IMG/VR virus record: IMGVR_UViG_3300043639_000042
Coordinates: 1-24,067 of that record
Strand: one strand, 5' to 3'
Length of the DNA stretch: 24,067 nt
Source of the DNA: a virus
Positions 3,528-22,905 of the stretch are shown here, piece by piece. A program made the position numbers and the translations under genes. The number at the start of each line of letters is the position of its first letter. Within the stretch, counting starts at the first letter, position 1. The notes below the pieces were generated by a model. It saw nothing but the letters and a program-made list of their open reading frames with translations. It was not told the DNA's origin and did not search any database.

Positions 3528-4015
3528 GCGAGGAGGGGCGCCGCCCGTGGGACCGCCGCCCGGGGGAGTCCGCCCGGGCGTACGAGGCGTTCCGCCGGTT
3601 CCGCGACGCCGGGCCGCTCCGCACGTTCGACGTGATCGTGACCGACACGGACCGCCGGACGACGCTCCTCGACTGGTCCGGGCGGAACGATTGGAGGGAC
3701 CGGGCCGCGGCGTGGGATGACGAGGTCCACCGGACCGATGACCTCCGCCGCCTCGAAGAGCTACGCGGGATGCACGACCGTCATCAGCGGGCCGGACGCC
3801 TGGCGATGATGAAGGCCCTCGCCGCCCTCCAGAACGTCGAGCCCGGCGACATTCCGCCGTACGCCGCGGCCCGCCTCCTGGAGCTGGGCGCCCGCCTGGA
3901 GCGCGACACCCTCATCGTGTCCGTCGAGGAGCTGCAGGGGGTCCCGGCGGCCCCGGTGGAGGACCCGTGGGAGGCGGTCGCCCGTGAGCTTGAAGGCCTC
4001 CCCGCCTCACCCTGA
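3524..4015 (+). CDS. terS: Terminase small subunit
   Basis: A 163-residue protein whose N-terminal region contains PWDRRPGESARAYEAF and the later W-x4-W-x2-R-A-x2-W-D pattern (WSGRNDWRDRAAAWD), typical of small terminase subunits of actinophages. A long charged helical region (about 75-140) would form the oligomerisation core. The protein recognises the packaging site and loads the large subunit. It starts with a GTG coupled to the HNH gene and overlaps the large subunit by 32 bases. Position and pattern support the call; sequence conservation in this family is always weak. Confidence 0.78.
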   Translation: MSEEGRRPWDRRPGESARAYEAFRRFRDAGPLRTFDVIVTDTDRRTTLLDWSGRNDWRDRAAAWDDEVHRTDDLRRLEELRGMHDRHQRAGRLAMMKALAALQNVEPGDIPPYAAARLLELGARLERDTLIVSVEELQGVPAAPVEDPWEAVARELEGLPASP

Positions 4016-5420
4016 ACCCCGCTGGGGGACCCCGCGCCGGGCGGGGCGGGCGACGCGCGGGCCGCTCCTCATCCGGGTCGGGCTGCTCCTCGGCTGGCGC
4101 TTCCATCCGTGGCAGGTCCACGTGTCCGACGTCGCGCTGGAGGTCCACTCCTCCGGGCTCCCGTACTACCGCACCGTCGGCCTGTCGGTGGCCCGCCAGA
4201 ACGGCAAGACGCTGCTGCTGCTGGCTCGCATCGCGATGGAGCTGCTCGGGCGCCGCCGCACCGTCGTGTACACGGCGCAGGACCGCCAGACGGCGCGGCG
4301 CAAGTGGGAGGAGATGTGTCTCGCCCTCCTCGCCGTCCCGTCGTTCGCCGCCCGGGTGATCGAGTTTCACACGAACAACGGGCAGGAGGTCCTCCGCCTC
4401 GACACCGGCTCCGTGTTCCTCATCGTGACGCCGAACGACAAGGCGGGGCGGTCGATGTCGGTGGACCTGGCGATCGTGGACGAGGCGTTCGCGCACCGCT
4501 CGATGGACGTGATCGGCGCCCTCTCCGGGACGATGGCGGCCCGGACGCACGCCCAGCTCTGGATCACATCGAACGCCGGGACCTCCGAGTCGGTGCTGTT
4601 CCGCCACTACACGGAGACCGGGCGGGCCCAGGTCGCCAACCCCGCGTCGCCGATGGCCTGGTTCGAGTGGGCCGCGGAGGAGGGCGCGGACATCTTCGAC
4701 CGGGAGGGGTGGGAGGCGGCGAACCCGAGCCTGGACCTCCCGGGCGGAGTCGTCTCCGCCCACCTGTCCGCGATGGCGCTCGACGGGATCGACCCCGACA
4801 AGTACCGGCGGGAGTACCTCAACCAGTGGGTCGACATCGACGTGCTCACCGGGATCGACGCCGCGACGTGGAACGCCTGCCGCCTCGATGAGAACGTGCC
4901 CGCCGGACGCCTCGCCCTCGCCGTGGACATGACCCCGGAGCGTGACCGCGGCGCCCTCGTCGTCGCGGGTGAGGCGCTGCTCACGATGTGCACGGACGGG
5001 ACCGTCCGGGAGGTCGTGCCGATGGAGGTCATCGAGCACACGTCCGACGTGGACCGCCTCACCGCCCGCACCATCGAGGTCGCCCGCCGCGCCGGAGCGC
5101 TCGTGGTCCTCGACCGGGGCAACCCCGCCTCTTCCCTCGTCCCCGCCCTGGAGCGCGAACAGGTCGAGGTCCGCCTCATCCCCGGCCCCGAGTTCGCCCG
5201 GGCGTGCGGCGACTTCTACGACGCCGCCCGGTTCCGGCGCCTCTCCCACCGCGGGGACTACCGCCTCGCCGACGCCGTGCTCGCGGCGACGAAGCGGTCG
5301 ATGGGCGAGTCGTGGGTGTGGAAGCGGCGCGGCCCGTCCGACATCTCCCCGCTCGTGGCCGCCACCCTCGCCCGGTGGGGCGTCGTCGCCTCGGTCCCGG
5401 TCATCCCGGCGATCTACTGA
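3984..5420 (+). CDS. terL: Terminase large subunit
   Basis: A 478-residue packaging motor. The ATPase domain has Walker A ARQNGKT (about 70-76), Walker B VDEA (165-168) and the coupling motif ITSNAG (194-199). The C-terminal half is an RNase H-like nuclease with acidic residues in LAVDMTPERD, VVLDRGNP and ADAVLAATK. It cuts concatemers and pumps DNA into the prohead. The GTG at 3984 gives a short basic N-terminal extension and overlaps terS; a later start is possible, but no better ribosome site is seen. The gene ends before an intergenic hairpin and is not followed directly by the portal, as is more usual; an accessory block lies between. Confidence 0.93.
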   Translation: MSLKASPPHPEPRWGTPRRAGRATRGPLLIRVGLLLGWRFHPWQVHVSDVALEVHSSGLPYYRTVGLSVARQNGKTLLLLARIAMELLGRRRTVVYTAQDRQTARRKWEEMCLALLAVPSFAARVIEFHTNNGQEVLRLDTGSVFLIVTPNDKAGRSMSVDLAIVDEAFAHRSMDVIGALSGTMAARTHAQLWITSNAGTSESVLFRHYTETGRAQVANPASPMAWFEWAAEEGADIFDREGWEAANPSLDLPGGVVSAHLSAMALDGIDPDKYRREYLNQWVDIDVLTGIDAATWNACRLDENVPAGRLALAVDMTPERDRGALVVAGEALLTMCTDGTVREVVPMEVIEHTSDVDRLTARTIEVARRAGALVVLDRGNPASSLVPALEREQVEVRLIPGPEFARACGDFYDAARFRRLSHRGDYRLADAVLAATKRSMGESWVWKRRGPSDISPLVAATLARWGVVASVPVIPAIY

Positions 5421-5484
5421 CCTGTGTATGGCGATCCGCCGCCGCCCGTAACGGGGTCCGCGCCGAATTTCTCAGCGAGCGTGC

Positions 5485-5520
5485 CAGGGGCAACGAGCTC
5501 TCGGTGAGAATGTGCCCCTG
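5485..5520 (+). terminator. Inverted repeat after terL
   Basis: CAGGGGCA (5485-5492) and TGCCCCTG (5513-5520) form a perfect eight-pair stem around a 20-base loop, which itself can form a small TCTC/GAGA hairpin. There is no T-tract. It lies between terL and the accessory block and probably marks the end of the terminase transcript, or is a regulator site. Confidence 0.5.
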
Positions 5521-5549
5521 ACCTGGGACTATGGGCGACCTCGGCCTGG

Positions 5550-5600
5550 TTAGATACAGGCGCCGGGCACTCCGCCCGGCGCACACGAAGGACAGCAACC
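5550..5600 (+). promoter_or_regulatory. Candidate promoter, 5' hairpin and shared 15-base start leader
   Basis: A -10-like TTAGATA (5550-5556), with TG three bases upstream, is followed by a perfect hairpin CGCCGGGC-ACTCC-GCCCGGCG (5561-5581) and then CGAAGGACAGCAACC (5586-5600), directly joined to the ATG. AAGGA serves as the Shine-Dalgarno, eight bases from the start. The same 15 bases precede the genes at 552 and 21472. This suggests the accessory block is its own transcription unit. Confidence 0.55.
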
Positions 5601-6167
5601 ATGACCAAGTTCCAGACCCACGTTCACCCCGAGACCTACGTCGCGACGGACCCGCTGGAGTGGCGGACCCCGCAGCTCCACACGAAGGCCGCCGCCTGCA
5701 AGCTCTCGGACTGCACGTTCGCGGACCACACGGAGGCCGCCAAGGTCGAGTACGTGAAGGCGGCCGCGAGCCTCCGCACCGAGCTGGCGAGCCAGTCCCG
5801 TGCGCTGAAGGCCGCCGCCCGGAGGGCGTCCGCCGCCCTAGAGGCCGCCGAGACCCACGAGGAGGTCGTGGAGGCGGTCGAGGCCATCGCGGCCACGGAG
5901 CCCACCCGGAAGGCCCGCCCCGCGGCGGAGCGCCGGAACGAGACGACGCACCCGCACGGGGAGTCCGCCGTCGCCACGCTCGGCTGCCCCACGTGCTCCG
6001 CCCGTAAGGCGGTGCGGTGCGTCCGCCATGACGGCGAGCACACCAACCACGTGCACGCCGCCCGGATGAAGGCGTGGGAGGCCAAGGGCTCCCCCGCCGC
6101 CACCCTCCCGGCCAAGGCCGTGAAGGCCGCCGCCAAGAAGAGCGCCGCCAAGGCCGGTGCCAAGTGA
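5601..6167 (+). CDS. Zinc-finger protein with histone H1-like Lys/Ala tail
   Basis: A 188-residue protein in three parts. The N-terminal region (1-45) has scattered His and two Cys. The middle is a long Ala/Glu/Arg helical region, probably coiled coil (about 45-115). The C-terminal part has the phage zinc-finger pattern C129-x2-C132-x7-C140-x11-H152, then a Lys/Ala-rich tail (about 158-188, including AKAVKAAAKKSAAKAGAK) like the DNA-compacting tails of histone H1 and actinobacterial HupB. A nucleoid-type or DNA-condensing role is inferred from these parts. It is first in the accessory block, preceded by the shared start leader, and overlaps the next GTG by four bases. Confidence 0.8.
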   Translation: MTKFQTHVHPETYVATDPLEWRTPQLHTKAAACKLSDCTFADHTEAAKVEYVKAAASLRTELASQSRALKAAARRASAALEAAETHEEVVEAVEAIAATEPTRKARPAAERRNETTHPHGESAVATLGCPTCSARKAVRCVRHDGEHTNHVHAARMKAWEAKGSPAATLPAKAVKAAAKKSAAKAGAK

Positions 6168-6487
6168 CCGGGGAGCAGCACCCCGCCAAGAGCGCCGCCC
6201 GGGAGACCGGGCGGCGCCGCCGCGTCCGGGACCTGCCGGACTGCCGGCCCTCGTGCGCCGCCCGCCGGAACCCGAACGCCGAGTGCGTGTGCGGGGAGCT
6301 GGCGGACTTCCGGGCGTACTTCAACGTGGCCGACGAGCTGTCGGACCCGCTGACGTCCCTGGAGGACCTCGACGCCCGGTACGTCCGGGAGGCCCGGCGG
6401 AGCAGCGAGGCCCTTGGGCTCTCCTGGCCGCCGTACCTGGCGGACGCCGAGGAGTTCGCCCTGTCTCACCCGGAGTACCTGGCGTGA
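6164..6487 (+). CDS. Hypothetical protein with four clustered Cys
   Basis: A 107-residue protein with a basic N-terminal 25 residues, a cluster of four Cys (CRPSC and ECVCG, about 27-44) that could bind zinc, and an acidic helical remainder containing repeated Asp-Glu-Leu and Tyr residues. I do not recognise the family. The start is the GTG overlapping the preceding stop; the longer open frame from 6074 is antiparallel to nothing but reads through the previous gene and is rejected. The stop overlaps the next GTG. Confidence 0.65.
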   Translation: MTGEQHPAKSAARETGRRRRVRDLPDCRPSCAARRNPNAECVCGELADFRAYFNVADELSDPLTSLEDLDARYVREARRSSEALGLSWPPYLADAEEFALSHPEYLA

Positions 6488-6924
6488 GGGGCGTCGCCAT
6501 CATCGTGGAGCACGTCGGGGACGACCCGCTCTACACGTACCGGGTGGAGCCGTTCAACGGCGCCCTCCCCGAGCTGCAGGCCATCATCGGCGGCTACATC
6601 GAGGCCGCCCCGTCTCACGAGTCGGTGACGATCTGGTGCAACGAGGACGGCAAGGCGCTCCGCCTCCCCGTGAACCGGCTGGCGATGGACGTGTGGATTC
6701 GCTGGGACGTGTACGGCTGCATGACGGTCGGCCGGGACTGGCTCGCCGGGAACGTCGTGGTGACCGGCGGGACCGGGCGCCACGGGGAGACGCTCGACAT
6801 TCCACGCGCCGCCGCCGAGTGGGTCCTCACCGTGGCGGAGGACGCCGGAGCGGTGATCGTCACGGAGCCCCGCCCGGACTGGTCCCGGTTCGGGCTCGTG
6901 GACCGCACGGAGGACGACGCGTAA
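6484..6924 (+). CDS. DUF3846-domain protein
   Basis: A 146-residue protein matching the DUF3846 layout: LQAIIGGYIE (31-40), then NEDGK (53-57), LPVN (61-64) and a closing GNVVVTG (89-95). This small alpha/beta domain is common in phages and plasmids; I know of no proven role. Residues 96-146 form a C-terminal extension beyond the usual domain, with a helix and a DWSRFGL motif. The GTG start overlaps the preceding stop. The gene ends about 50 bases before a strong hairpin, so it closes the first half of the accessory block. Confidence 0.72.
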   Translation: MRGVAIIVEHVGDDPLYTYRVEPFNGALPELQAIIGGYIEAAPSHESVTIWCNEDGKALRLPVNRLAMDVWIRWDVYGCMTVGRDWLAGNVVVTGGTGRHGETLDIPRAAAEWVLTVAEDAGAVIVTEPRPDWSRFGLVDRTEDDA

Positions 6925-6946
6925 CGCCCGGGAGCGGTCGCTGTGC

Positions 6947-6952
6947 TATCGT
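6947..6952 (+). promoter_or_regulatory. Candidate -10 upstream of hairpin
   Basis: TATCGT lies nine bases before a GTG (6962) that opens the same frame as the ParB-like gene. A transcript from here would run straight into the 13-pair hairpin at 6972-7002, so it could be attenuated there. No clear -35 is visible, so the call is weak. Confidence 0.3.
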
Positions 6953-6971
6953 CTCCGCCTCGTGAACCTGT

Positions 6972-7002
6972 ACCGGCCCCGGGAACCTCTCCCGGGGCCG
7001 GT
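6972..7002 (+). terminator. Strong GC hairpin between DUF3846 and ParB-like genes
   Basis: ACCGGCCCCGGGA and TCCCGGGGCCGGT form a perfect 13-pair stem with a five-base loop ACCTC. There is no T-tract, as is common for actinobacterial terminators. Its 3' arm plus following bases, CGGGGCCGGTCCGCGT (6993-7008), recurs exactly after the integrase terminator (22960-22975). Confidence 0.7.
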
Positions 7003-7010
7003 CCGCGTCC

Positions 7011-7016
7011 TACGAT
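7011..7016 (+). promoter_or_regulatory. Candidate -10 for the ParB-like/glycosyltransferase unit
   Basis: TACGAT ends eight bases before the GTG at 7025, giving a possible leaderless or nearly leaderless transcript. The region that would hold the -35 lies inside the hairpin and shows no match to TTGACA. Confidence 0.4.
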
Positions 7017-7024
7017 CGCCCGCG

Positions 7025-7684
7025 GTGACAGCGACGCACGAGGTGGTCCGGGTGGCGGTGGACGCGCTCCGCCCGCACCCGCGGAACTACCGGACCCACC
7101 CGGAGGACCAGCTCGCCCACATCGAGCAGTCGCTCCGCCTCCACGGGTTCTACCGCAACATCGTGATCGCCCGCGACGGGACCATCCTCGCCGGGCACGG
7201 GGTCGTGCTCGCGGCCCGCCGTCTCGGGTGGGAGGAGGTCCCCGTGATCCGTCTCGACATCGGGCCGGATGATGCCCGCGCCCTCCAGGTGCTCACCGGG
7301 GACAACGAGATCGCCAACCTCGGGGACGTCGACGACCGGGAGCTGACCGAGCTGCTCCGTGAGCTGGCGTCGGAGGACTGGGACCTCCTCCTCGGGACCG
7401 GGTTCTCCGAGCAGCAGCTCGCCGCCCTCGCGCTCGTCACCCGGCCCACGTCGGAGCTGGCCGACCTGGAGGCCGCCGGGGAGTGGCTCGGGCTCCCCGG
7501 GCTGGAGGGCGCGGACCCCGAGCCGCGGATCACGATCCGGTTCCAGGACCTCACGGACCGGGACCGCTTCCTGGCGGACGTGCTCGGCGGCGAGTACCCG
7601 ATCCTCCGCAAGAAAGGTGAGGTCTGGACGACGTGGTATCCACCGAAGGCGATGAACGATCTGGCGAGCCTCCGCTTCGAGTAG
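7025..7684 (+). CDS. ParB-like (ParB/Srx-fold) protein
   Basis: A 219-residue protein. Residues 7-105 are a ParB N-terminal-like domain: VDALRPHPRNYRTHP, then HGFYRNIVIARDGTILAGHG, AARRLGWEEVPV (63-74) and TGDNEIANLG (91-100). The GHGVVLAARRLG segment is the version seen in phage ParB-like proteins near methylases and terminases, rather than the GERR motif of chromosome partition proteins. Such proteins have been described as nucleases or as CTP-binding DNA switches; which applies here is unknown. The C-terminal 110 residues are not recognised. The GTG at 7025 is preferred over one at 6962 because the earlier start would put a terminator hairpin inside the gene. Confidence 0.8.
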   Translation: MTATHEVVRVAVDALRPHPRNYRTHPEDQLAHIEQSLRLHGFYRNIVIARDGTILAGHGVVLAARRLGWEEVPVIRLDIGPDDARALQVLTGDNEIANLGDVDDRELTELLRELASEDWDLLLGTGFSEQQLAALALVTRPTSELADLEAAGEWLGLPGLEGADPEPRITIRFQDLTDRDRFLADVLGGEYPILRKKGEVWTTWYPPKAMNDLASLRFE

Positions 7685-7695
7685 GCCTCAGCGCC

Positions 7696-7857
7696 GTGCG
7701 GCGGCGCGTCCGCCTCATCCGGTGGCGGCTCGGCGCCCGTCGATGCGTCTGCGGCGAGCACGTCCTCGCGCCCCGCACGACGATGGAACTGGCCGGGGTC
7801 AAGCACCGCACCGACGGCCCGTGCTACCACTGCGACACCTACGGGGACCCGCTGTGA
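7696..7857 (+). CDS. Small zinc-ribbon-like protein
   Basis: A 53-residue basic protein with C-x-C near residue 18 and C-x2-C near residue 45, a likely single zinc ribbon. The GTG at 7696 follows the ParB-like stop by 11 bases without a clear ribosome site; upstream ATG codons within the previous gene (7633) are an alternative. The stop overlaps the glycosyltransferase GTG by four bases, so the two are probably coupled. No function is known. Confidence 0.55.
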   Translation: MRRRVRLIRWRLGARRCVCGEHVLAPRTTMELAGVKHRTDGPCYHCDTYGDPL

Positions 7858-8768
7858 GTGCTCCGCCGCGGCGGGTGCCCCGGTTCCCGATCTACATCCC
7901 GAGCAAGGGGCGGGCGCGCCGCGACGCCTACTGCACCGCCCGGTTCCTCACCGCGGACGGGGTCCCGTTCCGCCTCGTGGTGGAGCGCTCGGAGGCCGCC
8001 GCCTACGAGGCGCTGTACCCGGAGGCCGAGGTGCTCGTGCTCCCATTCTCGGACGCCGGGTCGGTCATCCCGGCCCGGAACTGGATTCGTGAGCACGCCG
8101 AGGCGGAGGGCCACACCCGCCACTGGCAGCTCGACGACAACATCTTCGACGTGCGCCGCCTCTATGCGGGCAAGCGCATCCCGTGCAACTCGGGGATCGG
8201 GTTATGGGTGTGCGAGGAATTCTCCGAGCGTTACACCAACGTCGGCGTGTCCGGCCTGAATTATCAGATGTTCGTCTCGGATGAGGAGCGCAAGCCCTAT
8301 TTCCTGAACGTCCACGTGTACTCGTGCACGCTCATCAACCACGCCATGCCCTACCGGTGGCGGGGCCGCTACAACGAGGACACCGACCTGTGTCTCCAGG
8401 CGCTCGCCGGCGGCTGGTGCACGGTCGCGCTGAACGTGTTTATGGCCCACAAGCGCACGACGATGAAGATGGCCGGGGGGAACACGGAGGCCCTCTCGTA
8501 TTTCGATGACGGGCGGCTGCGGATGGCCCGGGCACTGGAGCGCCAGTGGCCTCACGTCGTGGAGACCCGCCGCCGGTTCAAGCGTCCGCAGCACGTCATC
8601 CGGGGCAACTGGCGAGGGTTCGACACCCGCCTGATTCGGCGCACCGACATCGACTGGGATGCGCTCCCGGCGGTGGACGAACTCGGGATGGAATGCAACG
8701 CCGTGCGCTCGATCCGCTCACCCATCATCGAGCGTGTCCACGCCCGCGCCAAGGCGGAAGGGTTCTGA
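7854..8768 (+). CDS. TET-associated-type glycosyltransferase (TAGT family)
   Basis: A 304-residue GT-A-fold-like enzyme. It starts with FPIYIPSKGR (11-20), then LVVE (41-44), IPARNW (72-77), RHWQLDDNI (89-97) with the DDN metal/sugar-nucleotide site, NVHVYSC (152-158), YRWRGRYNEDTD (167-178), GGWCT (186-190) and KRTTMKMAGGNT (200-211). This set is the signature of the TAGT family described beside TET/JBP oxygenases in phages, where it glycosylates 5-hydroxymethylcytosine in DNA. No TET/JBP gene is seen in this window, so the substrate is unproven. The gene has more A/T-ending codons than its neighbours (TAT, AAT, TTC-rich stretch at 8200-8500) and the only in-frame TTA codon I noticed (8202-8204, Leu117), suggesting recent acquisition. 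It ends before a hairpin. Confidence 0.8.
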   Translation: MSAPPRRVPRFPIYIPSKGRARRDAYCTARFLTADGVPFRLVVERSEAAAYEALYPEAEVLVLPFSDAGSVIPARNWIREHAEAEGHTRHWQLDDNIFDVRRLYAGKRIPCNSGIGLWVCEEFSERYTNVGVSGLNYQMFVSDEERKPYFLNVHVYSCTLINHAMPYRWRGRYNEDTDLCLQALAGGWCTVALNVFMAHKRTTMKMAGGNTEALSYFDDGRLRMARALERQWPHVVETRRRFKRPQHVIRGNWRGFDTRLIRRTDIDWDALPAVDELGMECNAVRSIRSPIIERVHARAKAEGF

Positions 8769-8785
8769 GTCAACGACCCGGCGGA

Positions 8786-8806
8786 GACCGAGGGCTAGCC
8801 TCGGTC
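8786..8806 (+). terminator. Hairpin between glycosyltransferase and portal
   Basis: GACCGAGG and CCTCGGTC form a perfect eight-pair stem with a five-base loop GCTAG. There is no T-tract. It closes the accessory block. The loop and 3' arm also contain TAGCCT (8796-8801), ten bases before the portal GTG, so the site could combine termination with a new start. Confidence 0.55.
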
Positions 8807-8811
8807 ACCCA

Positions 8812-10062
8812 GTGGAGTCACGCCTGCCGTCCGGGCTCGTCGTAGAGCATCGCTCGGCGTGGGATGCCCCACCGAACGCGAATGATCCGGCGGACGTTCC
8901 TCCGGCGACCGTAGGCCCTCCTGACGCTCGTCCCGGCGACCCGAACGGGGTCGAGATCGTGTCCGGCCCGCCCCGCGGGGACTGGCGTGGGAGCGGGCCG
9001 CCCCGGGCGATGCCATGGTCCGGATGGCCCGGCGAGTGGGACACCCCGAACTGGTGGGGCCGCCTCAACGACGTGGCCGACACCGCGTGGGGCGCGCTGG
9101 ACCTCAACTCGAACCTCCTCGCGACGATGCCCCCGTACCTCGTGGCGGTGGCTCCGTCCACGCCGACGAGCTGGATCGACAACCCCGACCCGGACCTCTA
9201 CAACTCGTGGGAGGAGTTCGCCAAGCAGTACTTCTGGGATTACCAGATGGGCGAGGCGTTCGTGCTCTGCACGGCCCGCTACTCGAACGGGCTCCCGGCC
9301 CGCTTCCACGTCGTGGAGCCCTGGTTCGTCAACGTCGACATGGTCGGCGGGCGCCGCCGCCACTCGATCGGCTCCGTCGACGTGACCGAGGACATGCTCC
9401 ACGTGCCCTACAAGATCACGGTCGGGGAGGCCCGCGGCCACGGCCCGCTAGAGGCGGGACGCCAGCGCCTCGTCGCCGCCCGGATGCTCACGATGCACAT
9501 GACCGGGATGGCGACGCAGGGTGGCATCCCCGCCTCGGTGCTCGAGGTGCCCTCCCGGCTCGACGCCGAGCAGGCGGCGGACCTCCAGCACCAGTGGATC
9601 ACGGCCCGCCTGTCCGGGCTCGGGCTCCCCGCCGTGCTCTCCGGCGGGGTGACGTGGAAGGCGTCGATGATGTCCCCGAAGGACATGGCGCTGGTCGAGC
9701 TGCTCCAGTTCAACGAGTCCCGGATCGTGGTCCTCCTCGGCGTCCCCCCGTTCCTGATGGGTCTCCCGTCCGGCGGGGACTCGATGACGTACAGCAACGT
9801 CCTGTCGCTCTTCGACTACCACTGGCGCGCCGGGCTCCGGCCCCGGGCGTCGATCCCGATGGCGGCCCTGTCGAACTGGCTCCTCCCGGGCTCCGGGGTG
9901 GTCGAGCTGAACCGGGACGCCTACGTGCAGCCGGACCCGAAGACACGCGCCGAGATGTGGGAGATATTGATCCGCATCGGTGTCGTCACGGCGGAGGACG
10001 TGCAGGCGATCGAGCGGTACCGCGTGACGGGTGAGATGCCCGAGGGAGCAGCAGTCCTATGA
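8812..10062 (+). CDS. Portal protein, HK97-type
   Basis: A 416-residue protein forming the ring at the capsid vertex through which DNA passes. Support comes from the conserved block WWGRLNDVADTAWGALDLNS, the central region with HVPYKI, the segment FNESRIVVLLGVPPFLMGLP and the following TYSNVLSLFDYHWRAGLRP, all typical of HK97-like portals; the place just before the protease and capsid agrees. The first 60 residues are Pro/Asp-rich and probably disordered. The GTG at 8812 is chosen because the frame upstream runs back into the glycosyltransferase gene and through the hairpin. The stop overlaps the protease ATG. Confidence 0.9.
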   Translation: MESRLPSGLVVEHRSAWDAPPNANDPADVPPATVGPPDARPGDPNGVEIVSGPPRGDWRGSGPPRAMPWSGWPGEWDTPNWWGRLNDVADTAWGALDLNSNLLATMPPYLVAVAPSTPTSWIDNPDPDLYNSWEEFAKQYFWDYQMGEAFVLCTARYSNGLPARFHVVEPWFVNVDMVGGRRRHSIGSVDVTEDMLHVPYKITVGEARGHGPLEAGRQRLVAARMLTMHMTGMATQGGIPASVLEVPSRLDAEQAADLQHQWITARLSGLGLPAVLSGGVTWKASMMSPKDMALVELLQFNESRIVVLLGVPPFLMGLPSGGDSMTYSNVLSLFDYHWRAGLRPRASIPMAALSNWLLPGSGVVELNRDAYVQPDPKTRAEMWEILIRIGVVTAEDVQAIERYRVTGEMPEGAAVL

Positions 10063-10649
10063 CCGATGAGCAGCAGCCTGAGGTCCGCCCGGCGTCCCCG
10101 ATCGAATTCCGCTCGGTCGCCGACATGGAGGTCCGCTACGCCGAGCGGACCATCGAGCTGGTTCTCATGCCCTACGACACGGAGGCGGCGGTGATGATCC
10201 ACGGACGCCCCGTGCTGGAGTCCCACGCCCCGGGCGCGTTCACCGGGGTCGAGAAACGGGCGAACCGGGTGAAGGTGAACCGGGACCATGACGTGGCCCG
10301 GACCGTGGGCCGCGCCTTCGCTCTTCACCCGTCGCGGACCGAGGGACTCGTCGGTGAGCTGCGCATCGCCCGCACCCCGCTCGGTGACGAGACGCTCGGC
10401 CTGGCCGAGGACGAGGCGCTGGAGGCATCGGTCGGGTTCGCGGTGATGCCCGGCGGGGAGCGGTGGACCGATGGCCGCTCCCGGCGGCGGGTGTCGCGGG
10501 CGTTCCTCGATCACGTCGCGATGGTCCCGGAGGGCGCCTACGAGGGCCGTGTCCTCGCGGTCCGTTCCGCCGCCGTCACGGTGGACACACCGGTCCGGGT
10601 GCCGACCCCCAACCTCGATGAGGTCCTCGCCTGGATGGCCGGTCGTTGA
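10059..10649 (+). CDS. Prohead protease, HK97 family (peptidase S78)
   Basis: A 196-residue serine protease that trims the capsid scaffold during maturation. The likely catalytic His is H77 in NRDHD, and the Ser is S124 in LEASVGF. The fold core runs from FRSVADMEVR to about FLDHVAMVPEGAY. The acidic/aliphatic C-terminal tail is about 35 residues. It overlaps the portal gene by four bases. The stop TGA lies inside a TTGACC that can serve as the -35 of the capsid promoter. Confidence 0.92.
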   Translation: MTDEQQPEVRPASPIEFRSVADMEVRYAERTIELVLMPYDTEAAVMIHGRPVLESHAPGAFTGVEKRANRVKVNRDHDVARTVGRAFALHPSRTEGLVGELRIARTPLGDETLGLAEDEALEASVGFAVMPGGERWTDGRSRRRVSRAFLDHVAMVPEGAYEGRVLAVRSAAVTVDTPVRVPTPNLDEVLAWMAGR

Positions 10650-10676
10650 CCCGGCCCGACCGGGCGTGTCTACGAT
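10646..10676 (+). promoter_or_regulatory. Promoter for the capsid gene
   Basis: TTGACC (10646-10651) and TACGAT (10671-10676) are separated by 19 bases, the best -35/-10 pair in the window. The -35 overlaps the protease stop codon. It would give the capsid gene its own strong transcript with a leader of about 115 bases. Confidence 0.6.
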
Positions 10677-10683
10677 GACCGCC

Positions 10684-10797
10684 GAGTAGCCGCGACGCCA
10701 CTACCTCCGGAGGAGCCTCACCGCGAGCAGCGGGCCGGAGTAGCGGGTGACGAAGCCCTGCCGACACACATCCCCGTGTCCGTAGAGGAGTCACCCA
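10684..10797 (+). promoter_or_regulatory. Structured leader of the capsid mRNA
   Basis: The untranslated stretch before the capsid gene contains CTCCGG pairing with CCGGAG (flanked by CTAC and TAG) around a GC-rich inner region, then a GACAC/GTGTC hairpin, then AGAGGAG (10784-10790) seven bases before the ATG. No known riboswitch is recognised. It may stabilise the message or tune capsid translation. Confidence 0.45.
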
Positions 10798-12033
10798 ATG
10801 CCCGCGCAGACTGACGCGATGATCGCCCGGCTCGACTCTGAGCTGGAGGAGCGCAACGCCTTCATCGAAGGCCTGATCGCCAACGCCCAACAGGCCGATG
10901 AGGGTCGCGGACGCGACCTGAACAGCCAGGAGATGGAGCTGGTCGGCTCCGCCCGCGCCCGCATCGGCGCGCTCAACGAGCAGCTCACCCCGCTGCGCGA
11001 GACCTCCCGGATCGCCATCGAGTCGCGGGCACGGTCCCACGAGATCAACGGCGAGATCGTCGGCGCCCGCCACCGCGCCGGGGTCGGACCCGTCGAGTAC
11101 CGCTCCGCCGGGGCCTACATCAACGAGTACATCCGCGCCGGGATCGGGAACCGGGAGGCCGCCGAGCGCCTCGAAGTGTTCCACCGGGCCGCCGCCCACC
11201 AGACCACGGCGGACAACCCTGGCCTGCTCCCCGAGACGCTCCTCGGACCCATCCTCGCCAGCCTCGACTTCGCCCGCCCGCTGGTATCCGCGCTCGGGCC
11301 CCGCCAGCTCCCGTCCGGGTCGTGGTCGCGGCCCCGGATCACGCAGCACACCCAGGTCGGCAAGCAGACCGCTGAGAAGACCGAGCTGCCCAGCCGCAAG
11401 ATGATCATCGGCAAGATCCCGATCGAGGCGGACACCTTCGGCGGCTACGTCAACGTGGCCCGCCAGAACGTGGACTGGTCCCAGCCGCAGGTGCTCGACA
11501 TCGTGATCGGTGACCTCACCTCGGAGTACGCCTTCGAGACGGAGGAGGAGACCGGGACCGTGCTCGGCGCCGCCGCGGTGGCCGGTCCGGCGCTCCCCGC
11601 GACGCCCACGGCGGGCGACATCACCGCCGCCCTGTGGGCCGCCGCCGGTCTCGTGTTCGGCAACATGTGGACGGCGCGCACCCCGATCGGACGGCTCATC
11701 CTGGCGATGGCGCCGGACATGCTCGTGCTCATGGGGCCGCTGTTCCCGCCGGTCAACCCGACGAACGCCCAGTCGTCCGGGTTCAACGCCGGGGCCATCA
11801 CGGAGGGACCGCAGCCCGCCATCTCCGGGATCACCCCGGTCGTGTCCGGCGCCCTCGCGGCGGGGACCGCGCTCGTCATCGCGTCGAACTCGGTCGAGTG
11901 CTACGAGGACCGCATCGGCGCCCTGCAGGTCGTCGAGCCCTCCGTCCTCGGCGTCCAGGTCGCGTATGCGGGCTACTTCGCCCTGCCGGTCCTGGAGCCC
12001 ACCGGGGTCGTCAAGATCACGAAGGCGCCGTGA
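10798..12033 (+). CDS. Major capsid protein, HK97 fold
   Basis: A 411-residue protein. Residues 1-80 are charged, heptad-rich helix: the scaffolding delta domain that the protease next door would remove. The shell domain follows: AGAYINEYIR (about 100-110, N-arm/spine), GLLPETLLGPIL, the WSRPRITQHTQV and KMIIGKIPIEADTFGGYVNVARQ beta elements, and the C-terminal A-domain with FGNMWTARTPIGRL. These are typical of actinophage HK97-type capsids. It has its own promoter, leader and strong ribosome site, as expected for the most abundant product. The stop overlaps the next GTG. Confidence 0.93.
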   Translation: MPAQTDAMIARLDSELEERNAFIEGLIANAQQADEGRGRDLNSQEMELVGSARARIGALNEQLTPLRETSRIAIESRARSHEINGEIVGARHRAGVGPVEYRSAGAYINEYIRAGIGNREAAERLEVFHRAAAHQTTADNPGLLPETLLGPILASLDFARPLVSALGPRQLPSGSWSRPRITQHTQVGKQTAEKTELPSRKMIIGKIPIEADTFGGYVNVARQNVDWSQPQVLDIVIGDLTSEYAFETEEETGTVLGAAAVAGPALPATPTAGDITAALWAAAGLVFGNMWTARTPIGRLILAMAPDMLVLMGPLFPPVNPTNAQSSGFNAGAITEGPQPAISGITPVVSGALAAGTALVIASNSVECYEDRIGALQVVEPSVLGVQVAYAGYFALPVLEPTGVVKITKAP

Positions 12034-12281
12034 GCGGGGCCGCCACCGAGGCGGTCCCCGCCGCCACCGGAGACGACGGCGAGTGGCGCTGGTCGCAGCC
12101 GAACCAGCAGGTCGTTCGCCCGTCCGCCCGGCCGGATGACTGGCCTGGCTGGGAGGACCAGACCCCCGAGCCCGAACCCGAGCCCGAACCTGAGCCCGAG
12201 CCTGAACCCGAGCCTGAGCCCGAGCCGGAGGAGCCAGCGCCGGAGCCCGAGCCGGAGCCTGCGCCGGAGGAGCCCGAGTGA
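12030..12281 (+). CDS. Small protein with Pro-Glu repeat tail
   Basis: An 83-residue protein. The first 45 residues contain WRWSQPNQQVVRPSARPDDW. The rest is a proline/glutamate tail with 11 consecutive Pro-Glu pairs and further degenerate ones. It is coupled to the capsid gene by a GTGA overlap and to the next gene in the same way, so it is probably made with the head proteins. A spacer, decoration or capsid-surface role is possible; the function is unknown. The tail is extended and strongly negative. Confidence 0.7.
   Translation: MSGAATEAVPAATGDDGEWRWSQPNQQVVRPSARPDDWPGWEDQTPEPEPEPEPEPEPEPEPEPEPEEPAPEPEPEPAPEEPE
12165..12230 (+). repeat. In-frame hexanucleotide repeat CC[CTG]GA[AG]
   Basis: Eleven consecutive six-base units encoding Pro-Glu vary only at the third codon positions (CCC/CCT/CCG, GAG/GAA). 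The silent variation suggests selection for the peptide, not only replication slippage. Confidence 0.85.
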
Positions 12282-20112: not shown

Positions 20113-20393
20113 TGGCCGGCGAGGACTCCTCCCCGGCGGCCCACCCGGTGATGACGCTCCTCGCCGCCCGGAGCGTCACCGACCTCATCGTGCTCACGTT
20201 CACGGTCGTGGTGGCCGTCTCGATCCTGGCGACCGGCGCGACCATCGCCGTCATCGAGATTCGCGACCCGGCGACCGACACGACCGCCATCGTGGACACC
20301 CTGACGTCGACGGTCACGACGATCATCGGCGCCCTCCTCGGCCTGATCGCCGGCAAGAGCGAGATGTCGTCGCGGCCGACCCCGCCGCCGTGA
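20112..20393 (+). CDS. Holin-like protein, two membrane segments
   Basis: A 93-residue protein with hydrophobic segments at about 24-48 and 66-80 joined by a short acidic loop, and a Ser/Pro-rich end. Size, topology and the position next to the endolysin fit a phage holin, which opens the membrane at lysis. Other small membrane proteins share this form, so the call rests on context. The start shares one base with the endolysin stop; the stop overlaps the next GTG. Confidence 0.65.
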
Positions 20394-20965
20394 CCCCGAC
20401 CCAGGCGATCCGCATCCTCGCCGCCAGCGCCGCCACGAGCGCCGTCATCGTCGGCGGGACCTTCGCCTGGCAGGTCGCCGTCGGAGTCGACACGGAGGCC
20501 CCCCCAGCCGCCACCGTGCCCGGCGTCGGCATCATCCCGGGCCCGACCGGACCGCAGGGTCCCGCCGGGCCTCCCGGCCCGACCGGGCCTCCCGGACCAC
20601 GAGGCGAGCAGGGACCGCCCGGAGCGGACGGCGCGCCTGGGCTCGACGGCGCGCCCGGCGCGGACGGGCTCGACGGGGCCGCCGGAGCGGACGGCGCGGT
20701 CGGCCCTCCCGGCGCCCGGGGCGCCCGGGGCGCGACCGGACCGACCGGCGCTCAAGGACCTACCGGCTCCGCCGGACCGACCGGGCCGCCCGGAGCGGAC
20801 GGCGCGACCGGGGACCCCGGACCAGCAGGCCCGCCGGGAACCCCGGGCGCCGCCGGGCCGCCGGGACCGTTCTGCCCGCCCGGGTTCCACATCGAGCACG
20901 TCAGCCTCCACCAACGCCAGCCGGTCGACGGTGACATCGTCGTAGCGGTCTGCGCCGCCGGATGA
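20390..20965 (+). CDS. Membrane-anchored collagen-like protein
   Basis: A 191-residue protein in four parts: a short N-terminus with a hydrophobic anchor (about 7-31), a linker, 37 uninterrupted Gly-X-Y triplets (51-161), and a 30-residue C-terminal cap with two Cys (162 and 188). Gly-X-Y runs form trimeric collagen-like rods. In phages they usually occur in tail fibres, but here there is a membrane segment and the gene follows the holin, so the rod would probably project from the cell membrane. A role in lysis, in changing the lysogen surface, or as a fibre stalk is possible. The GTG start is coupled to the holin-like gene. Confidence 0.75.
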
Positions 20966-21172: not shown

Positions 21173-21471
21173 TCTCCGTTCGGCACTCGGACTCCCCGGG
21201 CTAACTCTCCGGGCTAACTCCTCGGCGCCTTGTGCCTATCTACCAGGGCTGATGTCCGGGAGCCCGGTTGACCCCCAGAACTGCCCGGGAGGGACGAGCG
21301 GGGCCGAGCGGGGTCCGGCGGGGACCGCTCCGGGTGGACGTACTCCCTGGACAACGACCGGATGGCCCCGCTACACCCCGTGGGACCCCGGTAAGCCCCG
21401 TGGAGCCTGTAGAGTGCCGGTTAGCCACTCCACGGGGTAACTGCCCCGAGGACCTACGAAGGACAGCAACC
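21173..21471 (+). other. Probable attP region with integrase arm-type repeats
   Basis: Between tRNA and integrase there is no gene but many repeats: GGGCTAACTC at 21198-21207 and 21211-21220 (13-base period), the related GGGGTAACTG at 21434-21443, and the inverted form GGTTAGCC at 21419-21426. CCCCGTGGAG (21396-21405) and CTCCACGGGG (21428-21437) form a perfect ten-base inverted repeat. CCCCGTGG also occurs at 21376. Short repeats in both orientations next to a tyrosine integrase are typical of arm sites bound by its N-terminal domain. The core crossover site cannot be defined from this window alone. Confidence 0.55.
21410..21471 (+). promoter_or_regulatory. Candidate integrase promoter and shared 15-base start leader
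   Basis: TAGAGT (21410-21415) lies within the loop of the inverted repeat 21396-21437, so a protein binding the repeat could block it. CGAAGGACAGCAACC (21457-21471) joins directly to the integrase ATG and is identical to the leaders at 526 and 5586. AAGGA acts as the Shine-Dalgarno. Confidence 0.5.
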
Positions 21472-22905
21472 ATGACCGCGACAGACACACCCCGCCGGGG
21501 CCGCCCCCGCACCACGGAGGACGGCCCGATCGGGTCGGGCTCCGTGTTCGAGAACAAGGCCCGCGGCACGTGGGTCGCCCAGGTGTACGTCCGTGGGGAG
21601 GACGGGCGCCGCACCCGCCGGGCCAAGGGGTACGCCACGGAGGCGGAGGCGCGGGCCGCGCTGGTGGACCTCCGCCGGGAGCATCACGTCACGCCCGGGG
21701 CCGCCCGGACCGAGATCGAGACGCCGGTCGGTACGTCCGTGTTCTACGACCGGACCCGCGGCAAGTGGGTCGGCCAGTTCCGCTACGTGGAGGGCGGCAA
21801 GCGCCGCGCCAAGACGGTCGTGCGGTCCACGGAGACCGCCGCCGCCGCCGCCATCGCCGAGGTCGTCACCGCCACGTTCGAGGTCCGCCCGGTCACGCCG
21901 GGGCCGGACGCACTGCTGCGGGACTGGTTCCGCTTCTACGGCGAGCAGCTCCTCCCCACGGAGGGCCTCGCGGCGGACACGGTCTCCGGGGTGCAGGGCT
22001 ACCTCACCCGGGACCTCGTCCCGTCCGAGCTGGCGGCGCTGCGCCTCGACGCCCTCACGGCGCTCGACGTGTACAAGTACCTCGCCGCCCTCTCCGCCTC
22101 CGGGCGTGGCCCGTCGTCGGTGAAGCAGGTTCGCAACGCCCTCTCGAAGGCGCTGAAGGCCGCCGTGCTCTACGGGCGCCTCAGCAGCGGGGTCACCGAG
22201 GCGCTGCGGGGGCAGCGCCTCCCGCGGGCGGAGCGCGCGGCGGCCCGGCGGCGGCGGGTGAAGATGCTCACGCCGGAGCGGGCCCGCGGGCTCCTCGCGG
22301 CGGCGGCGGAGCACGGCGTCGAGTGGGAGACCCTCGTGCTCGTCATGCTCGGGACCGGGCTGCGCCGCGGGGAGGTCCTCGCGCTCCGCTGGGATCACAT
22401 CGACTTCGAGGCCGGGACGATGCGCTACGAGAACGCGATCGCCGGGGACGGCGCGGGCGGGGAGGTCTACGGGCCGACCAAGACGGGCGCCGTCGAGACG
22501 GACGTGCTGGCGCCGCAGGTCCTCGATGCGCTCCGCCGGCAGCGCACGGCGCAGGCCGAGGCCCGCCTGGCGTACCCGTGGACGTGGGCGGAGGGCGACG
22601 AGCACGACGACTTCGTGTTCACGAACGCCCACGGCCGCCGCCTGAAGACCGACTACGTCACGAAGCGGGTGACCGCGATCGCGGAGGCCGCCGGGCTCGG
22701 GCACATCACGCCGCACATGCTCCGCCACTCCGCCGCCTCGTTCCTGGCCGCCGCCGGGACCCCGCTCCCGGTCATCCAGCGCGTGCTGCACCACGCGTCG
22801 GAGACCATCACCCGCGACGTGTACGTCCACCTGTTGGAGGCCGCCTACACGGGCGGGGTGACGGCGCTCAACGAGGTCCTCCGGGAGCTGGCCGTCGGCG
22901 AGTAG
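21472..22905 (+). CDS. int: Tyrosine recombinase integrase with duplicated arm-binding domain
   Basis: A 477-residue integrase. Two consecutive AP2-like arm-binding domains are seen: residues 22-68 (GSVFENKARGTWVAQVYV) and 87-130 (TSVFYDRTRGKWVGQFRYV). The core-binding domain is at about 145-255. The catalytic domain carries R298 in TGLRRGE, K337 in PTKTG, H415 and R418 in HMLRH, H441 in LHHAS and the nucleophile Y451 in RDVY. All active-site residues are present. Most relatives have only one arm domain. The ATG at 21472 is chosen because the shared leader abuts it; the open frame upstream runs into repeat DNA. An excisionase-like gene lies downstream in the same direction. Confidence 0.95.
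   Translation: MTATDTPRRGRPRTTEDGPIGSGSVFENKARGTWVAQVYVRGEDGRRTRRAKGYATEAEARAALVDLRREHHVTPGAARTEIETPVGTSVFYDRTRGKWVGQFRYVEGGKRRAKTVVRSTETAAAAAIAEVVTATFEVRPVTPGPDALLRDWFRFYGEQLLPTEGLAADTVSGVQGYLTRDLVPSELAALRLDALTALDVYKYLAALSASGRGPSSVKQVRNALSKALKAAVLYGRLSSGVTEALRGQRLPRAERAAARRRRVKMLTPERARGLLAAAAEHGVEWETLVLVMLGTGLRRGEVLALRWDHIDFEAGTMRYENAIAGDGAGGEVYGPTKTGAVETDVLAPQVLDALRRQRTAQAEARLAYPWTWAEGDEHDDFVFTNAHGRRLKTDYVTKRVTAIAEAAGLGHITPHMLRHSAASFLAAAGTPLPVIQRVLHHASETITRDVYVHLLEAAYTGGVTALNEVLRELAVGE

Follow-up and report, generated by a model that had tools for sequence, protein, structure and literature searches.

In the 24,067-nucleotide stretch of viral DNA analysed here (the window), which is one whole linear IMG/VR record (IMGVR_UViG_3300043639_000042, positions 1 to 24,067), six open reading frames (ORFs) on the + strand lie between the genes for the terminase large subunit (TerL, 3984-5420) and the portal protein (from ~8812). 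The ORFs and their profile matches bear out the original prediction, made from the sequence alone, of a six-gene accessory block separating the two genes. The core of this block is probably a two-component DNA-glycosylation module, consisting of a TAGT glycosyltransferase (7854-8768) and a dedicated ParB-like partner (7028-7684), with DNA as the presumed sugar acceptor. The record has no end repeats, and the remaining phage genome is therefore missing from it. A host from Actinomycetota is suggested by the GC content of 72% and by the presence of Mycobacterium, Gordonia and Arthrobacter phages among the TerL relatives; in a host scan of genomes, ParB relatives were found only on four metagenome-assembled contigs.

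Judged by profile match and predicted structure, the glycosyltransferase is clearly a TAGT with a GT-A fold, as its family had been named beforehand, and it is predicted to transfer sugar to DNA. It matches PF20691 far above the cut-off (152.4 bits against 27.5; E 2e-44) over the whole model (1-205), and also matches phrog_842, annotated as 'beta-glucosyl-HMC-alpha-glucosyltransferase' (E 1e-34). Its acidic motifs D94 D95 and D176 D178 are intact and are invariant across 31 aligned sequences. The predicted structure is confident (predicted local distance difference test (pLDDT) 92.1, predicted template modelling score (pTM) 0.91), and its best match among GT-A chains is GalNAc-T2 (Z 14.6, root-mean-square deviation (rmsd) 4.6 over 229 residues), tied with cellulose synthase and others. 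A PDB sequence search with the TAGT gave no relatives. In a related record (L201, 6518-8242), the TAGT gene is split in frame by an apparent intein, so that the TAGT match falls in two pieces.

The ParB-like protein comprises an N-terminal domain that, by sequence profiles and modelling, is of the ParB/sulfiredoxin fold, a helical middle and a C-terminal 'WWP' domain. Its start is probably at 7028, not at 6962 as in the listed ORF, because its homologues start close to the HPRNYR motif. Although the protein scores under the Pfam ParB cut-off (21.0 bits against 26.3), its earlier description as ParB-like is upheld by strong matches to phrog_620 (E 3e-29) and by structure. Its N-terminal part further matches the N-terminal parts of phrog_498 'DNA methyltransferase' (E 7e-30) and of PADLOC MTase_II (E 4e-16), and the protein matches solved ParBs by profile (E 2.5e-6). 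In the predicted structure (pLDDT 82.0), residues 27-118 align with ParB N-domains (Z 14.1, rmsd 1.9 over 90 residues for 7bnr), with lower-scoring matches to sulfiredoxin and a serine kinase. The canonical motif of CTPase ParBs is an arginine-bearing box II (GERR-like), in place of which the window ParB carries a GHG motif, and the protein scores far below the cut-offs of the NCBIfam partition-ParB models. Among 50,697 phage genomes, no record covered the ParB at 80% or more and the best TAGT match was 36% identical; the module is therefore known essentially from uncultured phages only. The cultured Vibrio phages 1.124.O and 1.076.O carry TAGTs that are 36% relatives of the window enzyme.

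Gene neighbourhoods indicate that ParB and TAGT are a conserved two-protein unit across many unrelated uncultured phages. In viral contigs, the 80 ParBs closest to that of the window have TAGT directly downstream in 75 cases and within 3 kb in 4, the remaining one being cut by the contig end, so that TAGT adjoins or follows within 3 kb in 79 of 79 testable loci. Conversely, of 72 TAGT relatives in viral contigs, those that exceed ~47% identity and whose contig extends far enough upstream are nearly all immediately preceded by a ParB relative, and the ParB stop and TAGT start often overlap. The two are also joined physically: the ParB N-domain, WWP domain and TAGT form a single 454-aa protein in G021/L033, in L051 and L052, where ParB is undetected, the WWP domain and TAGT are fused, and in L031 the WWP domain is a separate ORF preceding TAGT. 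Of 187 WWP-bearing ORFs (a count that includes overlapping loci of the same contigs), 182 either contain TAGT as a fusion or are followed by it as the next gene downstream; the C-terminal domain of this ParB is almost confined to TAGT loci. N-terminal extensions in Vibrio phages were also considered as WWP domains; they are similar and beat 1000 shuffles, yet they fail the family-wide threshold and were rejected.

Where ParB and TAGT are not adjacent, the intervening gene is a second TAGT, a radical-SAM gene, a class-I methyltransferase or, in L021, a glycosyltransferase-like gene. The class-I methyltransferases found in this position in L197 (2047-2904), L201 (5627-6517) and L029 (1523-2599) are alike and are possible sugar- or base-tailoring enzymes. 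Radical-SAM enzymes lie between ParB and TAGT in L172 (5654-6646) and L206 (1837-2871), and another stands right after a ParB in L296 (4998-5963).

The same type of ParB also accompanies other DNA-modifying enzymes. ParBs nearer the type found beside TET, more distant relatives of the window ParB, were scored in 80 loci (94 ParB ORFs); one representative of each partner class with several members was scanned by Pfam and PHROGs, and the 'other' partner class includes some unrelated or wrong-frame ORFs. One cluster holds 27 fused proteins, of which 26 carry a DPPY-like methylase motif and the representative matches N6_N4_Mtase. Other ParBs precede TAGT in 23 cases, TET in 8, C5 methylases in 4, DpdA-like proteins in 3 (L234 scanned; phrog_887, E 2e-19) and Mom-like proteins in 2 (L252 scanned; PF25680, E 4e-49); ABC-GNAT, PAPS-reductase-like and radical-SAM genes are seen as well. 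The TET genes of L014, L076 (two), L078 and L079 each stand directly after a ParB with a differing tail, and L078 has an additional ParB directly before a C5 methylase. In L014, the ParB-TAGT pair lies inside a known type of TET/kinase/amino acid:DNA transferase (ADDT) cluster, ~1 kb from Ploopntkinase3, a second ParB, Tet_JBP and the amino acid:DNA transferase, and is followed by terminase genes, whereas the window record and most relatives carry ParB-TAGT alone. Adjacency or fusion to such enzymes was thus found across unrelated phages for the class proposed here, a ParB-type partner of phage DNA-modifying enzymes. In the jumbo-size contig L076 (327 kb), both TET genes and the ParB preceding each of them lie at 7150-11388.

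The position of the module points in the same direction. In the few TerL relatives compared (52-75% identical), the gap between TerL and portal holds a zinc-finger homologue, ParB and TAGT (L001), ParB and TAGT (L006), a single 420-aa ParB_N-N6/N4 methylase fusion (L073) or small unrelated genes (L225), and is reduced to ~85 bases, without the insert, in L224 and L227. The TerL-portal junction is therefore a variable slot, which a ParB-containing DNA-modification unit fills in the window, L001, L006 and L073; a gap as wide as that in the window is indeed unusual within this lineage, as had been remarked. TerL lies downstream of TAGT on the same strand in 27 of the 28 related records whose TerL was recognised by phrog_2, and starts within 3 kb of it in 21 of the 28, compared with ~1.1 expected for random position and strand. 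The window differs in order, with the ParB-TAGT pair just after TerL.

These observations are best explained if the TAGT moves a sugar from a nucleotide sugar onto a base of the phage's own DNA. Glycosylation would take place after replication and before or during packaging, since expression beside the terminase suggests action near packaging. The C-terminal WWP domain would dock the TAGT, and the ParB/sulfiredoxin N-domain may bring the enzyme to DNA or license it by nucleotide binding, by analogy with DpdB, the ParB-like ATPase that serves DpdA in 7-deazaguanine insertion (PMC12839542). The likely benefit would be that the packaged genome escapes restriction by the host, or attack by modification-dependent nucleases. 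The original prediction of a DNA hypermodification cassette is accordingly retained for ParB and TAGT, on the grounds of their pairing, their fusion, the other DNA-modifying partners, the L014 cluster and the L073 slot, but not for the zinc-finger, DUF3846 and zinc-ribbon genes.

Several points weigh against this explanation. The fold cannot tell whether the acceptor is DNA, a protein or a sugar, and the best matches of the model include protein-modifying GalNAc-transferases; the structure matching proposed with the original prediction thus recovered the GT-A fold but, because GalNAc-T2, cellulose synthase and others are tied, the acceptor is not readable from it. The neighbour evidence is indirect, and many of the contigs come from related metagenomes. 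The replacement of the arginine box by GHG makes nucleotide use by the window ParB uncertain. In addition, genes for TET/JBP, a thymidylate-synthase-family hydroxymethylase (PF00303) or a C5 methylase were not found in the 24-kb window record, which agrees with the earlier remark that no TET/JBP or hydroxymethylation enzyme was visible and is weak evidence because the record ends are missing. Among related records, TET was found in 1 of 68 (1 of 41 by Pfam, and 0 of 27 further ones by a five-sequence profile); the exception is G011, which was detected by both and served as the positive control of the profile.

Five ParB-TAGT records have end repeats of 123-144 bases and were treated as complete genomes. 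They contain neither TET nor a thymidylate-synthase-family enzyme, and nor do two cultured TAGT-bearing Vibrio phages; one of the five (G016) has a C5 methylase. A thymidylate-synthase-family hydroxymethylase is present among the relatives only in two TAGT records, in both of which ParB is undetected. It had been suggested that, if not visible in the block, such an enzyme might lie elsewhere in the genome, or that the sugar goes on something else; since TET and hydroxymethylase are missing from nearly all tested relatives, including the five with end repeats, an enzyme elsewhere is not needed in general, although the window itself is a fragment. On sequence grounds, most ParB-TAGT modules may therefore work without the classical handle-making enzymes, or with an unrecognised one.

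The latter leads to a special case of DNA glycosylation, in which the TAGT performs a second step: the base, already hydroxylated or functionalised in another way, would come from the host or from an undetected phage enzyme, and the TAGT, often two in tandem, would build or extend the sugar. This is a real possibility, if not the version we would expect. The TAGT of T2/T6 adds glucose to alpha-glucosyl-hydroxymethylcytosine in DNA, so that a base with one glucose receives another (PMC13216743); phages also have different handles, 5-carboxymethylcytosine among them (PMC12783734); and in several relatives either TAGT is present twice in tandem or ParB and TAGT are separated by a gene for a radical-SAM enzyme, a class-I methyltransferase or another glycosyltransferase-like protein. 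All-against-all clustering of 32 related records, however, revealed no recurrent gene that could make an acceptor or handle; besides ParB, TAGT and structural genes, only a Gp37/Gp68-like gene, named by eye from its sequence, recurs (4 records). A broader proposal is more tentative and, taken as a whole, doubtful: GHG-type ParB/sulfiredoxin proteins with enzyme-specific tails might be the subunit that generally loads or licenses the enzymes with which phages modify DNA, be these N6/N4 or C5 methylases, TET, Mom, DpdA-like proteins or TAGT, and ParB-TAGT might at the same time glycosylate DNA by an undescribed chemistry that requires neither TET nor a hydroxymethyl-nucleotide pathway.

The place of the module among head genes could instead mean that the TAGT glycosylates a virion protein, such as capsid, portal or tail. 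The location between TerL and portal and the structural matches to polypeptide GalNAc-transferases would fit this, and mycobacteriophages that carry glycosyltransferase genes have been proposed to glycosylate their capsids (PMC11256854). We consider it unlikely, however, as it leaves unexplained the TAGT-specific ParB and the pairing of such ParBs with methylases, TET, Mom and DpdA-like proteins. Moreover, tblastn of the window TAGT gave no Mycobacterium phage matches, and the TAGT of Vibrio phage 1.124.O sits far from the head genes, in a replication/DNA-metabolism gene cluster where a DNA adenine methylase and a dUTPase are its neighbours.

Still less probable is that the ParB functions in partitioning an extrachromosomal prophage, or in some other DNA transaction, and adjoins TAGT for historical reasons. 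ParB-domain proteins near the terminase and portal of DLP3 and DLP5 have been read as phagemid partition factors (PMC7326821). Yet the window record encodes a tyrosine integrase (21268-22905), no ParA-like gene was noticed, and the near-exclusive pairing with TAGT, the fusions and the TAGT-confined C-terminal domain all argue against partition. Alteration of host surface sugars or teichoic acid by the TAGT, for superinfection exclusion or seroconversion, is highly improbable, since, although the GT-A fold is common to polysaccharide synthases, inspection of the sequence and model revealed no evident signal or transmembrane segment, and such a role would account neither for the DNA-linked partner nor for the linkage to terminase.

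Apart from ParB and TAGT, the genes of the block appear, from their distribution in relatives, to be variable passengers outside the conserved core. TerL (+ strand; phrog_9, E 2.9e-62; 74% identical to L001) is followed by a 188-aa zinc-finger-motif protein with a Lys/Ala-rich tail (5601-6167, + strand), a 107-aa ORF without a family match whose N-terminal part is Cys-rich (6164-6487, + strand) and a DUF3846 protein (6484-6924, + strand; PF12957, E 8.6e-16). Between the ParB and TAGT genes (both + strand) lies a small zinc-ribbon-like ORF (~7699-7857, + strand), named from its CxC...CxxC motif, and the GTG start of TAGT overlaps the preceding stop codon. The portal gene (+ strand; PF04860, E 4.6e-33) probably starts at the GTG at 8812, and not at the listed 8659, and ends at 10062. 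The sub-units of the block had been described as terminator-bounded, which did not hold: a scan of the window found no intrinsic terminators on the + strand, where there are just three GC hairpins without a T run. One precedes the zinc-finger gene (5560-5582; -24.8 kcal/mol and z -3.4 for the fold of 5545-5600), one of 13 bp is probably within the ParB gene leader (6972-7002; z -3.25 for 6925-7027) and one lies between TAGT and portal (8786-8806; z -2.5).

The zinc-finger protein has a 37% relative in L001 only and is absent from the L006 slot, and the zinc-ribbon-like ORF is absent from L001, whose ParB and TAGT overlap. The motifs and the Lys/Ala-rich tail that had suggested a zinc ribbon and a zinc finger with a histone-like tail are present, but neither protein has an above-cut-off family match. 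Similar small zinc proteins are scattered over 24-1722 of the window and are therefore not special to the block; a 'genome protection' role for the zinc-finger/histone-like protein was rejected, as it is not conserved with ParB-TAGT and has similar counterparts elsewhere in the record. Of the small zinc-motif proteins in this run, the one at 1489-1722 is similar to PF24623 Phage_zn_bind_8, just under the cut-off, and the phage protein encoded at 935-1492 has two zinc-finger motifs of the C2H2 type (PF13894, E 1e-4, under the cut-off). Elsewhere, the ORF right after the major capsid gene contains a long Pro-Glu (EPEPEP) repeat (12050-12280), and a collagen-like protein with GPx repeats (20390-20965) matches NCBIfam Scl adhesin models far under their cut-offs.

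The TAGT family and solitary TAGTs are already known: TAGT without alpha-GT or beta-GT occurs in 288 of 753 phage genomes, which is unexplained (PMC13216743). The window TAGT shares the PF20691 family, the GT-A fold and phage encoding with the T2/T6 beta-glucosyl-HMC-alpha-glucosyltransferase/TAGT, but T-even phages combine TAGT with dCMP hydroxymethylase and alpha-GT, whereas the window has a ParB-like partner and no hydroxymethylase detected in the 24-kb fragment. Phage ParB-DNA methyltransferase fusions have a homologous ParB N-domain (phrog_498, PADLOC MTase_II N-terminal part) and, in L073, occupy the same slot; they differ in being methylases in one fused protein, and L073 has a canonical GNHR-type box compared with GHG in the window. 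DpdA/DpdB likewise couples a DNA-modifying enzyme to a ParB-like partner of NTPase fold, a likeness at the level of fold class, although DpdA is a base-swapping transglycosylase and the window enzyme a glycosyltransferase. The CmoX/CmoY carboxymethylcytosine systems are also phage DNA hypermodification genes beside ParBc domains, whose function is noted as unknown (PMC12783734), and their handle, a carboxymethyl joined to an amino acid, differs from the window module. In the literature searched, which did not include two founding TET/TAGT studies (NAR 2013, PNAS 2021), the TAGT-specific ParB, the fusion, the terminase linkage and the TET-independence are undescribed.

In summary, solitary TAGTs, which are common in phages, gain a partner in the TAGT-specific ParB, a location beside the terminase and a testable rule, namely that the ParB type is shared with other DNA-modifying enzymes. 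If true, this would account for the ParB domains recurring beside phage DNA methylases and hypermodification genes, noted as unexplained in 2025 (PMC12783734), and would point to DNA carrying a directly testable sugar modification of an undescribed kind.

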